Positions 1 to 3,779 of a stretch of 63,182 nucleotides of DNA are shown piece by piece. Source of the stretch: Flavobacteriales bacterium (GTDB lineage Bacteria > Bacteroidota > Bacteroidia > Flavobacteriales > UBA7430); NCBI GenBank assembly GCA_022425195.1, contig JAKMFX010000005.1, positions 1 to 63,182 on the forward strand. Direction: 5' to 3'. Numbering within the stretch: the stretch's first letter is position 1; each line of letters begins with the position of its first letter. The notes below the pieces were generated by a model. It did no database searches, was not told the DNA's origin, and saw nothing but the letters and a program-made list of their open reading frames with translations. Position numbers and translations under genes: made by a program.

Positions 1-662
1 ACGTAGTACAAGTATATTTTATCGCTGACAGTAATGTACACGAAAAGGTTGTAAAGCAGCATTACCAAAATAATTCCCATGTACATTCCCATTATTAAAT
101 CTCTATCTATTATTGATTTTAGAGTTGTTATAGAAGTTCCAATGTAGATAGGTAAATTAATTTGCTCATTACTTTTAATTTTTAAGAAGCAGGTCACAGA
201 GGAGTTTTTTGGCGCATAAACGTCAAATAAATAATTGGGATGATTGTGTTTTCTTTTTGTAAAGACCTTGTATTCACTAATTTCTTGAGTTATTATTTTT
301 TCTTTGTTTGGGTAATAAGAATAAAGTTCTACAACATCTATAGTTGGATGTCTGACATCCAGCAATAAAGATGGCTCAGAAGTGTTATTTGCTATTTCAA
401 ATTTCACCCAAAAAGTAGAGTAGCTTAGCCCAAGATTTAAGTTTGTTTGATCTGAAGGCTCTAAAGAGTTAATGAGAAGGTCGTTTATTTGGGATTGGTT
501 ACTTTTATCCTCGTAAAGGATGTAGTTTTTTATTTTGTAAATAGTAGTTTGATGGTCTATTAAAGTGGGTTCTTGTGCAGCTAAAAATTCGGGTATGGAA
601 ACAAAAATTAATGTAAATAATAGATGAAATTTCACCGAACATTTAGTCTTTTTTAACCACAT
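1..662 (-). CDS. 7TMR-DISM membrane receptor, N-terminal part (cut by window edge)
   Basis: The frame runs open from an ATG at 662 (an earlier in-frame ATG is at 695) to base 1. Residues 1-30 form a signal peptide (MWLKKTKCSVKF, a hydrophobic run, then FLAAQ). Residues about 35-180 look like the periplasmic 7TMR-DISMED2 sensor fold, with LSYSTFWVKFEIANNT and LLDVRHPTIDVVELY. The final visible stretch (MGMYMGIILVMLLYNLFVY) matches the first helix of a 7TMR-DISM transmembrane domain. Such proteins usually end in a histidine kinase, cyclase or DNA-binding domain, but the output domain lies outside the window. The gene starts 23-56 bases after the flavoprotein gene on the same strand, so the two are probably co-transcribed. 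Confidence 0.85.
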   Translation of the reverse strand, partial: MWLKKTKCSVKFHLLFTLIFVSIPEFLAAQEPTLIDHQTTIYKIKNYILYEDKSNQSQINDLLINSLEPSDQTNLNLGLSYSTFWVKFEIANNTSEPSLLLDVRHPTIDVVELYSYYPNKEKIITQEISEYKVFTKRKHNHPNYLFDVYAPKNSSVTCFLKIKSNEQINLPIYIGTSITTLKSIIDRDLIMGMYMGIILVMLLYNLFVYITVSDKIYLYY

Positions 663-718
663 AGGTAATAAACCCTTGTTCACTAGATGTTTCATTCTTT
701 TTCGTGTTAAATATTATT

Positions 719-2293
719 TTAATACATACTTTTTTTGGATAAGTTTGGACTGTATCTTCCTGGTGCTAATACTTGATTTACATCAATTGCATTTTTAATC
801 TTATCAATTAATTTAACAGATGTTAAGTCATGTTCGTCATTGTAAATTTTCATGGAATCTATATTTAACCGATACGGCATAAGGCCCATATTTCGGCATT
901 CTCTGAAAAGTTCATCGTAACAAGATTGTGCATTTTTTTTATCGTCGACATTGTCTTTTTCGTACAAAATAGGGATAGTAGAATCAAAGCACTGGTTAGA
1001 AATTGTAGTTAAGGTAATTAATGGGTCGATCTTATGCTTTTTGCAAATCGAAATTATTTTTTTGACGAAAACCTCTACTGTATTTGGTCGGATAGGAAGA
1101 AGTGGTGAAAACCAAATTAAACCACAATCATCAACAGCTGGATTTATGTTCCCTTTCAAGCTAGGCGTCTTCTTAGATTTCGAATAAGCCAATGCTAAAG
1201 CCATTTCAGAGGGAACTCCATCAAGTATTTTGAAGAAATTATCCATAGCCTCTATTCTGTCTGGAATGCCAAAAAAATATTTGTTAATCAAGTTAGGCAG
1301 ATTGTTTCTCAGTCTTGTTGTTCTTTTATTGAGAAAAACAACGGGGGATGATAAATTTTTTAGTTTTCTTTTGATTATTCGTTTTGCTTGTTTAATGATT
1401 TCAATAGGTCCATATAGACCTCCCACACAAGTCCAGATGATGTTTTTGTTTTGATGTTTATCACCAAACATAGCTTTTATTCTCTCTCTATTCATCAGGT
1501 TAATCCCACCAACTATACTTCCTAGTTCTTGTTTTATTTCTCTAATAATTTTAATTGTGTGATTTAAATCTTTTGTTTCTTTAATAGAAAACATGAATAC
1601 TTCTGTGTGTTCTGTTTTTTTTGCAAGTGCAATCGTGATTTTCGTCACAATACCAAAATTGGATTGAGTGAATATTCCATCTAAATACGGACCTATTCCA
1701 TATTTGAAAACTTTAGCAACTTCTACCGCCTTAAAATCACTCAATGGTGATTTGTAAAGAGATCCGTCTGGTAGTATAGCTTCTAAAGAAATAAGTGAGG
1801 CAAAATGATCAGATAATGGAGTAATCCCGTAACCACGCTCAATTACATTACCTAAAATGCTGCAATTTGGTCCAGCACCTGTTGTTGGTACCAGATAATT
1901 AACTTTATTTATCTTAAAATATTCGAACAACATTTTTTGAGTAACACCAGGTTCTAAAGTGATATAACCTAACTCATCATCAAAATTTAATATTTCATTT
2001 AAGTCAGAAAGATCTAGAATGATTGAATTATTTTTAATCGGGTTTGCACTTCCGTATCCCCAATTGTTTCCTGTACTAATTGGGTAAATAGAAATCATAT
2101 GTTTATTTGCAATCCTCATTATTCCAGTAATTTGATTCGAACTTGAAACCTTTATTGCTGCTAGGATTTGCCTATGAATACCCATTGTATTTATATGGTA
2201 TCTTTTTAAATCTACTGAAGCAGTAATAATTTTAATATTTTCTAAATCAGGAGAATTTAAAAAGTCATCTATTATACCTTTTGTCATCAACAT
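719..2293 (-). CDS. FAD-binding oxidoreductase, 4-cresol dehydrogenase / vanillyl-alcohol oxidase type
   Basis: This 524-residue protein has the PCMH/VAO layout: an FAD-binding domain with the pyrophosphate loop YPISTGNNWGYGSA at about residues 71-84, then LEPGVTQ, then VPTTGAGPNCSILGN followed by ERGYG.TPLSDHF. The C-terminal cap domain ends with VLAPGRYS. This pattern is typical of flavoproteins that oxidise para-substituted phenols. The substrate cannot be read from sequence, and no cytochrome partner is visible next to it. Its start codon lies one base after the stop of the upstream acyltransferase gene, which implies translational coupling. The gene looks AT-richer and more Lys/Ile/Asn-rich than the rest of the window, which may indicate transfer. 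Confidence 0.85.
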   Translation of the reverse strand: MLMTKGIIDDFLNSPDLENIKIITASVDLKRYHINTMGIHRQILAAIKVSSSNQITGIMRIANKHMISIYPISTGNNWGYGSANPIKNNSIILDLSDLNEILNFDDELGYITLEPGVTQKMLFEYFKINKVNYLVPTTGAGPNCSILGNVIERGYGITPLSDHFASLISLEAILPDGSLYKSPLSDFKAVEVAKVFKYGIGPYLDGIFTQSNFGIVTKITIALAKKTEHTEVFMFSIKETKDLNHTIKIIREIKQELGSIVGGINLMNRERIKAMFGDKHQNKNIIWTCVGGLYGPIEIIKQAKRIIKRKLKNLSSPVVFLNKRTTRLRNNLPNLINKYFFGIPDRIEAMDNFFKILDGVPSEMALALAYSKSKKTPSLKGNINPAVDDCGLIWFSPLLPIRPNTVEVFVKKIISICKKHKIDPLITLTTISNQCFDSTIPILYEKDNVDDKKNAQSCYDELFRECRNMGLMPYRLNIDSMKIYNDEHDLTSVKLIDKIKNAIDVNQVLAPGRYSPNLSKKSMY

Positions 2294-2294
2294 A

Positions 2295-3056
2295 TTATTT
2301 AGTTTGATTTGTATTGAATTTCATATTTAATTGGTAATTAATTTCTATTTCCGTCATTTTGGTCTGTTCTATTTTTAGTTGACAGGGGTTTTCTCTCAAT
2401 TCAAGTATGATTTTTTTATCTTGCCTTGTGGCTGTTTCTAGTGTTTTTACATTCATGACGCCTAAAGTCCAAGCAATCATATCCTTTTTAGGGTAGGGGA
2501 AGGTCCCTTGCTCACCCAAAGCTTTACTCTCAACAAACCCAATATTACGACAGCTTTGTAGCGTAGGCCGCCCCACGATAGCCATTAAAGTGGTTAATTT
2601 TAGCTGATTGACAACAGCTACAGCGGCTCTTGTTAATCGATGTCCGAGCCCAATTTTTTTATCATTACGGCTCTTTTTATGGTGGTGAATAGAACTCCAT
2701 AAACCACACGTTTCTCCAACACCACCGTATTGAGAGAGTTCTTGAATTAAATGACTTATTCTTGAATCCATACAACCCACAGCATCTTCAATAGGAAGCG
2801 GGTATTCTGGAGCCGCGATATGAATGCGAACCCCTCCAATCATTTCTCCTGTAGAAAGGGATTCTGCAATCAATACATAAACATTCGGATTTTGCGGCCA
2901 ATTGATATTGTTCGAGGTAACCATGTCTATGCCGTAGTGTTTTAATATTTCGTGATGCTTTCTTATAAATAATAGGCTAACGTGAGGCTCCTCAATAGCT
3001 CTTAATGCTCGTATACTAAATTGAGCAACATCTCTATGGCCACTAGATATCAACAT
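2295..3056 (-). CDS. GNAT-fold acyltransferase, autoinducer-synthase/FeeM-like
   Basis: This 253-residue protein has no exact family name that I recognise. The central part looks like a GNAT fold: a strand with EMIGGVRIHIA, then VGETCGLWSS where N-acyl amino acid synthases and AHL synthases carry an E-x-x-R-like motif. A helix follows (GLGHRLTRAAVAVVNQL), then a strand (TLMAIVGRPTLQSCRNIGF) resembling the acyl-CoA/ACP-binding end with its Y/C-x-x-x-GF signature. It is the first gene of the leftward operon with the VAO-type flavoprotein and the 7TMR-DISM receptor. I infer an acyl transfer making a small molecule that the flavoprotein could modify. An ordinary acetyltransferase is the alternative. 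Confidence 0.6.
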   Translation of the reverse strand: MLISSGHRDVAQFSIRALRAIEEPHVSLLFIRKHHEILKHYGIDMVTSNNINWPQNPNVYVLIAESLSTGEMIGGVRIHIAAPEYPLPIEDAVGCMDSRISHLIQELSQYGGVGETCGLWSSIHHHKKSRNDKKIGLGHRLTRAAVAVVNQLKLTTLMAIVGRPTLQSCRNIGFVESKALGEQGTFPYPKKDMIAWTLGVMNVKTLETATRQDKKIILELRENPCQLKIEQTKMTEIEINYQLNMKFNTNQTK

Positions 3057-3167
3057 CTCATTAGCTTAGATTGGTTCAGATTTTTTAATTTATATTTTTA
3101 TATGATGTCCCAGGAGGTTAATTTTTAAATTATTTTAGGATAAATATATATAATTATTTACATTTAC

Positions 3168-3779
3168 ATGAATGTTATATGTGTTTATATGAAAAATAAG
3201 GAAACAAAAATTGATAATTTCCCTGTCAAAACTGAGCTAGACAAGTTTAAAACTGAGTTTACTGATGAAGAAATTCGCAGTCAGATTAAATCTTATGGAC
3301 AGGATTTCACGACGCCCAGAGAAAAAATTCGCTTGCTTTACTTAGACGATGAGCGCGATGAATTGGAGAGTTTTCGGAGCTTGTACAGACGTGTTTTCGA
3401 TGTTCACATAGCCTCTACTCCAGGACGAGCCTATGAAATCATGAAAACCGAAGACGTACATGTAGTGCTTACAGACCAGAGAATGGACTTGATGACTGGT
3501 GTTGAATTTTTAGAATCCATTGTTGAAGATCATCCCGATCCTGTCCGAATTCTCGTTACGGGATATTCAGACATCACCGCAGTCATCAATTCGATTAATC
3601 AGGGCAGAGTTTATAAGTACATTTCCAAACCTTACCCGAGAGAAGCCATGCAGAAGAGTATCGAAAATGCTGCTGAAGTCTATTTCTTGAGGAAGGATCG
3701 AAAAGAGTTGATTCAAAAATTAACCAGAGCTTGTTCTCAGTTGGAATTTTTATTAGGTCAAAGCTCCCTTGATGTATAA
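3168..3779 (+). CDS. Stand-alone response-regulator receiver protein with C-terminal coiled coil
   Basis: A CheY-like receiver domain spans about residues 54-175 of 203: acidic pair Asp60/Asp61 (LYLDDERDE), phospho-acceptor Asp103 (VVLTDQRMD), Thr131 (LVTGYSD) and Lys144 (YISKPYP). The 50-residue N-terminal extension is charged. The last 30 residues (RKELIQKLTRACSQLEFLL) look like a short coiled coil rather than an output domain. The start could be Met8 (3189). It is divergent from the acyltransferase operon and shares a 111-base AT-rich intergenic region with it, so it may act downstream of the 7TMR-DISM receptor; that link is inference. Confidence 0.85.
   Translation: MNVICVYMKNKETKIDNFPVKTELDKFKTEFTDEEIRSQIKSYGQDFTTPREKIRLLYLDDERDELESFRSLYRRVFDVHIASTPGRAYEIMKTEDVHVVLTDQRMDLMTGVEFLESIVEDHPDPVRILVTGYSDITAVINSINQGRVYKYISKPYPREAMQKSIENAAEVYFLRKDRKELIQKLTRACSQLEFLLGQSSLDV

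Follow-up and report, generated by a model that had tools for sequence, protein, structure and literature searches.

Does a small group of genes at the edge of a Flavobacteriales contig make a small molecule that is then sensed by the receptor kinase encoded beside it? The question is raised by the first 3,779 nucleotides of the stretch analysed here (the window, 63,182 nucleotides), which is the whole of contig C41 of a 1.77-Mb genome (G000) and has its base 1 at the contig end. On the minus strand, an operon encodes a predicted FeeM/LuxI-fold N-acyltransferase of 253 amino acids (2295..3056; AlphaFold model and family alignment), presumed to be an N-acyl amino acid synthase. It is followed after 1 base by a 4-phenol-oxidase-type flavoprotein of 524 amino acids (719..2293), a member of the vanillyl-alcohol oxidase/p-cresol methylhydroxylase (VAO/PCMH) family that carries flavin adenine dinucleotide (FAD), and after a further 23 bases by the start of a 7TMR-DISM receptor (1..695). 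A lone receiver diverges from them on the plus strand. The initial annotation had described three tightly packed genes and a diverging receiver-only protein, and all four are indeed found where it placed them. It is likely, in our judgement, that this cassette makes a ligand which its own 7TMR-DISM receptor kinase senses.

Exchange and co-variation of sensor and enzymes

The cassettes of three congeners, namely the window (A), L012 (B) and L013 (C), were compared by identity at synonymous four-fold sites. By their flanking genes and by the acyltransferase, A and B are sisters, with 46-65% identity between A and B and 33-49% between A and C, the latter range covering 13 flanking gene segments, among them the acyltransferase and the kinase half of the receptor. 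Inside a block the pattern reverses, A and C sharing 71.5% in the VAO gene, 79.6% in the sensor and 76.3% in the 7TM region against 29-39% between A and B, whose proteins are 27-29% identical in the VAO and 38-46% in the sensor and 7TM. In its kinase half, the receptor gene reverts to the flank pattern (A-C 39.5%, A-B 65%). Pooled over A and C, 210/283 sites (74%) are identical within the block vs 458/1123 (41%) outside it (Fisher p 2.5e-24). The block is limited on one side by the acyltransferase/VAO junction and on the other by receptor codon about 420-440, just past the last transmembrane helix. Since the reversal is confined to the block and the flanks are unchanged, we conclude that the VAO gene and the sensor half of the receptor moved together while the acyltransferase and the kinase half stayed. 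In the VAO tree A and C group with a Methylorubrum protein (100/99) and B falls outside that group; given this grouping and their low identity, the window and L012 VAOs were rejected as simple orthologues.

Co-variation was also measured across 25 loci with a ThiF-type gene in place of the VAO, using pairwise identities with a cubic control for the kinase half, the downstream kinase RR-HK and the lone receiver. The sensor, taken as its 7TM or its extracellular part, correlates with the acyltransferase with partial r of 0.59 and 0.64 (p 0.0002, by a permutation on pairwise matrices that is inexact for related sequences, the two halves of one gene serving as internal control), and more weakly with ThiF (0.26 and 0.32). 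For the kinase half the corresponding values are -0.03 with the acyltransferase, 0.76 with RR-HK and 0.60 with the small receiver RR3 (17 loci having RR3). RR3 itself, which evolves about as fast as the 7TM region, gives -0.07 with the acyltransferase. The correlation of sensor and acyltransferase holds after thinning to 17 loci, and mere rate saturation was rejected as its cause by the cubic controls, the thinned set and the fast-evolving control gene. Within one genus, L041 shares 80-87% identity with L040 and L042 in the kinase, RR-HK and receiver vs 44-46% in the acyltransferase and 37-38% in the 7TM region; L040 and L042 share 62% and 76%, respectively, in the latter two. Hence the sensor half and the biosynthetic enzymes evolve as a unit, and both the block exchange and the partial correlations show the co-variation that characterises synthase/sensor-kinase quorum-sensing pairs.

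Conservation of the cassette and its interchangeable tailoring gene

The acyltransferase is present in 9/60 close relatives, 13/395 phylum genomes and 32/396 order genomes. A total of 47 acyltransferase loci were examined (the window and 46 further), and the immediate neighbourhood of the gene contains a receptor kinase in 40, a lone receiver in 38 and a downstream kinase, usually of REC-HisKA-HATPase architecture, in 36; some of the loci lacking one of these are cut by contig ends. Synthase and sensor kinase are conserved together at this frequency, so the possibility raised in the initial annotation that the genes would not be neighbours in related genomes was not borne out. Because the neighbourhood is kept across genera and families, chance co-location is excluded. 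In six loci (L107, L109, L111, L113, L114 and L117) a ThiF gene and the acyltransferase, five times with a lone receiver, are found with no receptor kinase adjoining.

A tailoring enzyme could be identified in 45 of the loci, and it is ThiF-type in 40, VAO in three and an ICMT-type methyltransferase in two (L038 and L039). The VAO stands at this position in the window genus only. The usual gene there encodes ThiF or ThiF-nitroreductase of the Rv1355c/TrzS family, and the ThiF-nitroreductases of relatives exceed the NCBIfam Rv1355c cut-off of 476 with 704 bits (L017) and 734 bits (L040). The window genus (genomes G000-G002) contains no ThiF-flavin oxidase, the best match being a generic protein of ThiF/MoeB size at ~32 bits; as no Rv1355c-type gene occurs there, the window set is not classed as a TrzAS/OxzAB oxazolone pathway.

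Properties of the two enzymes

The acyltransferase has no match in Pfam or NCBIfam, and neither phmmer nor profile searches against solved structures gave a significant match. Its AlphaFold model (pLDDT 82) is nearest among solved structures to FeeM (2g0b, Z 16.8 over 180 residues), followed by LasI (Z 15.0) and TofI (14.8). The best small plain GNAT reaches 14.7 over 142 residues, and ordinary GNATs align over shorter stretches in general. The model therefore presents a GNAT core whose closest solved structure is FeeM/LuxI-like, as expected of the LuxI/FeeM fold, and this predicted structure argues against the plain N-acetyltransferase that the initial annotation had considered as the alternative. 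We presume that the enzyme moves a long acyl chain onto an amino group. Residues H34, G75, P88, E115 and W120 are invariant in 34 family members, one of which matches Pfam FeeM (E 0.28). An order-level family member (L016) has no match among 72,556 plasmids, and at L118:7393-8562 one protein joins a distant acyltransferase-like domain to a restriction endonuclease domain of Mrr type.

The flavoprotein matches Pfam FAD_binding_4 with 69.9 bits, and its top solved relatives are PCMH (E 2e-52) and the vanillyl-alcohol and eugenol oxidases (VAO, EUGO), with E values ranging from ~1e-52 to 1e-37. Both fold and nearest solved relatives are thus those of the 4-phenol-oxidising VAO/PCMH flavoproteins. 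Its Tyr80, Tyr474 and Arg475 align with Tyr95, Tyr473 and Arg474 of PCMH, which hold the phenolate of the substrate; the triad is conserved in all three congeners and in the Methylorubrum protein, and the GlcD-like paralogues lack it. There is no obvious Tyr or His at the place of covalent FAD linkage, a region that lies outside the alignment, and some members of the family bind FAD non-covalently. Inheritance of the VAO within Bacteroidota was rejected, as the next best protein in the 395 phylum genomes is GlcD-like and matches over the N-terminal half only; no other 4-phenol-oxidase-type flavoprotein is found in these genomes outside the window genus.

In the plasmid records searched, the protein outside the genus that is closest to the VAO (37-39% identity) is encoded on plasmid pMPPM04 of Methylorubrum populi, in one gene run with a protein that matches the Pfam FeeM N-acyl amino acid synthase family with 134 bits. 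Given the phenolate triad and this FeeM-linked relative, we infer that the substrate of the window VAO is an acylated para-phenolic compound, e.g. N-acyl tyrosine. The plasmid run (L153:3179-10445) comprises a FeeM-type acyltransferase, a methyltransferase, the VAO flavoprotein, an FAD halogenase, an amidase and a flavodoxin-like oxidoreductase, and its product is probably a halogenated N-acyl phenolic metabolite.

Receptor, kinases and the contig break

The window holds the first 231 residues of the receptor, i.e. a signal sequence, the extracellular 7TMR-DISMED2 sensor (90 bits) and the first 7TM helix as the start of 7TMR-DISM_7TM, both domains scoring above the Pfam cut-off. The remainder is located on a second contig (G000:C47:1-1514), to which it was assigned by its match to the congener receptor and a 7-base overlap. 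Indeed, C47:3-1505 (501 amino acids) matches congener receptor residues 231-731 at 77%, and the reading frame continues across the 7 bases that the contigs share. As this part carries the remaining 7TM region (141 bits), an H-box (HEFNNAN) and HATPase_c, the receptor is a 7TMR-DISM histidine kinase of ~733 amino acids with extracellular DISMED2, 7TM and intracellular kinase; the output domain, which lay beyond the contig edge for the initial annotation, is thereby identified. The 7TMR-DISM kinases are common and mostly orphan receptors. A second one (~650 amino acids) is encoded alone in the same genome at G000:C10:16397-18346 (L063:8398-10347), with no biosynthetic genes beside it.

Directly after the receptor follows a second, soluble histidine kinase (C47:1515-2453), and after it hemW and further housekeeping genes, whose order is shared with the two congeners. 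The lone CheY-like receiver (203 amino acids, 3168..3779, plus strand; Pfam Response_reg 56 bits) has residues D60, D61, D103, T131 and K154 at its phospho-acceptor site, all identical in 38/38 cassette homologues. The divergent intergenic region (3057-3167) contains at 3136..3167 an AT-rich stretch without assigned strand, GTAAATGTAAATAATTATATATATTTATCCTA as read on the minus strand, which is nearly identical across the intergenic regions of all three congeners and is probably the shared promoter region of the divergent genes. The palindrome ACTACGTAGT adjoins the breakpoint of both contigs (window 1 / G000:C47:1), within the receptor gene and the exchanged block; the break at this palindrome possibly reflects population variation that halted the assembler.

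Proposed pathway and alternative explanations

In the pathway that we propose, the FeeM/LuxI-fold enzyme would N-acylate an amino acid or amine with a fatty acyl group, tyrosine or a related compound being the most likely acceptor. Such an acceptor is suggested by the fold, by the neighbouring genes and by the phenol-binding site of the flavoprotein, and a tyrosine-derived ligand has in our view slightly less than an even chance of being the correct one. The VAO would then oxidise the para side chain of the acyl-phenol via a quinone methide, and the probable product would be an N-acyl dehydro- or hydroxy-tyrosine or a decarboxylated form. This enzyme occupies the place that is filled elsewhere by a ThiF cyclase/flavin oxidase of Rv1355c/TrzS type or by an ICMT-type methyltransferase, with which the same core in relatives would give oxazolones or methyl esters, respectively. 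The product would be released independently of any cluster-encoded exporter and would bind the periplasmic/membrane sensor half of the receptor kinase, as the co-variation suggests. The kinase half may in turn signal through the second kinase and the stand-alone receivers, a phosphotransfer route to which gene order and co-variation point, towards a final output that would be encoded outside the cluster. The idea put forward in the initial annotation, of an acylated and perhaps aromatic signal that the set both produces and detects, is supported by these data, production and ligand binding being the parts that we infer.

Extended to the relatives, and with somewhat less confidence than for the self-made ligand, we favour a class of Bacteroidota cell-to-cell signalling systems in which a conserved FeeM-fold acyltransferase and an exchangeable tailoring enzyme make N-acyl amino-acid-derived autoinducers. 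According to the tailoring enzyme these would be oxazolones, dehydro-tyrosines or methyl esters, and their receptors would be 7TMR-DISM histidine kinases with sensor halves that swap along with the enzymes, giving 'dialects' among close relatives.

Several observations weigh against a self-made ligand sensed in this way. The window acyltransferase has no Pfam Autoind_synth or FeeM match at E<=10, and it is therefore described as FeeM-like in fold and not classed as a member of that family. In profile-profile comparison with FeeM-type proteins it scores 24.2, the maximum of the column-shuffled controls being 24.9, and as the score is no better than these controls sequence homology to FeeM is not claimed. 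A weak kinship is seen instead with the TrzA-like, acyltransferase-sized neighbours of Rv1355c in Rhodococcus (25.2 vs 18.9 for shuffled profiles, above all 60 shuffles; E about 1e-3 against 133 proteins). Furthermore, seven loci have no receptor gene and five of them keep ThiF and a lone receiver beside the acyltransferase; such loci could be producers that lost the receptor or could represent an older function. The cluster also contains neither an exporter nor a DNA-binding output gene, and the evidence for the block exchange comes from three fragmented drafts (two metagenome-assembled records), with the window receptor split over two contigs.

The product could instead be a membrane or envelope lipid or an antimicrobial N-acyl amino acid, with the receptor monitoring either this product or the envelope for feedback or self-protection and not for signalling between cells. 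N-acyl glycine lipids are made by Bacteroidota, and N-acyl tyrosines and oxazolones are lipids of which some are reported to be antimicrobial (PMC12479983, PMC12856293). However, in the loci examined no gene for resistance, efflux or the envelope is conserved alongside the cassette, and swaps of enzyme and sensor half as alternative alleles are easier to reconcile with a signal that diversifies in specificity than with feedback of a housekeeping kind, which makes this explanation improbable. Slightly less credible still is catabolic sensing, in which the receptor would detect an external phenolic that the VAO and acyltransferase degrade or detoxify, with no signal made. Enzymes of the VAO/PCMH type are best known from phenol breakdown, and a sensor adjoining a catabolic enzyme would co-vary with it too, but relatives fill the VAO position with an Rv1355c-type cyclase/oxidase, biosynthetic where characterised (PMC12856293), or with a methyltransferase, and with no other catabolic enzyme. 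Moreover, it is the acyltransferase, beyond the oxidase alone, that tracks the sensor, and the cluster has no downstream phenol pathway. There is little to commend an assembly artefact (chimeric contigs, mixed population) as the source of the window/L013 exchange, which would leave ordinary neighbour conservation, for although the congeners are metagenome-assembled drafts and the window receptor ends at a contig edge, the switch points lie inside different contigs (the GNAT/VAO junction in C41 and receptor codon about 420-440 in C47) and both coincide with functional boundaries, a third genome carries an allele of its own, the co-variation measured across 25 other genomes is independent of the exchange, and L041 against L040/L042 provides a second case of the same sensor/kinase-half split.

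Relation to known systems

Synthase and sensor-kinase quorum-sensing pairs such as CqsA/CqsS, LqsA/LqsS and PhcB/PhcS co-evolve in specificity. The cassette resembles them in that a synthase gene adjoins a membrane histidine kinase and receivers, but differs in its synthase chemistry and its 7TMR-DISM sensor, and its ligand and any density dependence are presumptive. With p-cresol methylhydroxylase and the vanillyl-alcohol and eugenol oxidases the flavoprotein shares the sequence family and the phenolate-binding Tyr and Tyr-Arg (23-37% identity in comparisons with plasmid-encoded members of the VAO family); unlike them, it has no adjoining cytochrome subunit gene and no recognised FAD-linking residue, and its context is an acyltransferase and a receptor. 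Clusters of FeeM-type N-acyl amino acid synthases have the acyltransferase fold in common with the cassette, and it is in such a cluster that the nearest outside relative of the VAO sits; they differ in having no receptor, and the window protein lacks the Pfam FeeM match.

The tailoring enzymes of the relatives lead to the oxazolone pathways. Rv1355c is TrzS, which in Mycobacterium acts after the acyltransferase TrzA and converts N-acyl tryptophan to tryptazolone by cyclisation and desaturation (PMC12856293); tyrazolones are the products of OxzAB and TyzACB (PMC12856293, PMC10404671), and N-acyl dehydrotyrosines are associated with similar genes (PMC12479983). Like the cassettes of the relatives, these TrzAS, OxzAB and TyzACB loci of Mycobacterium and Pseudoalteromonas combine an N-acyltransferase gene with a neighbouring one for a ThiF cyclase, which is either fused to a flavin oxidase or encoded next to one. 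However, they are not described with a receptor kinase, and the window genus has the VAO in place of ThiF/flavin oxidase. The TrzAS authors liken oxazolones to signalling molecules and suggest signalling, naming no receptor (PMC12856293). For the ICMT-bearing variant, the expected product type is that of the methyl esters termed NAMEs, which are known from other organisms, with no receptor known, and which do not act in N-acyl homoserine lactone (AHL) signalling (PMC11580390). A complete oxazolone-type pathway in one chain is found on the Nitratidesulfovibrio vulgaris plasmid pDsulf-L2-1 (L165:2926-5850), where a single 974-amino-acid protein unites a FeeM-type N-acyl amino acid synthase with a ThiF cyclase and an oxidase of nitroreductase type; a gene for a PEP-CTERM protein lies nearby.

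Among open-licence PMC papers no description of the system was found, nor a link of 7TMR-DISM to these enzymes or to quorum sensing, and nothing relevant on 7TMR-DISM with an acyltransferase or Bacteroidetes ligands, although descriptions elsewhere are possible. This suggests that the combination of quorum-sensing-pair logic, oxazolone/N-acyl amino acid enzymes and a 7TMR-DISM receptor is as yet undescribed. If our reading is correct, the cassette would be a candidate signalling system for Bacteroidota and would provide a ligand class for 7TMR-DISM kinases as well as a function for N-acyl oxazolones. The block swap of enzyme and sensor half would then parallel, for a small molecule, the pherotype switching of peptide systems, and the cassettes would offer directly testable enzyme-receptor pairs.

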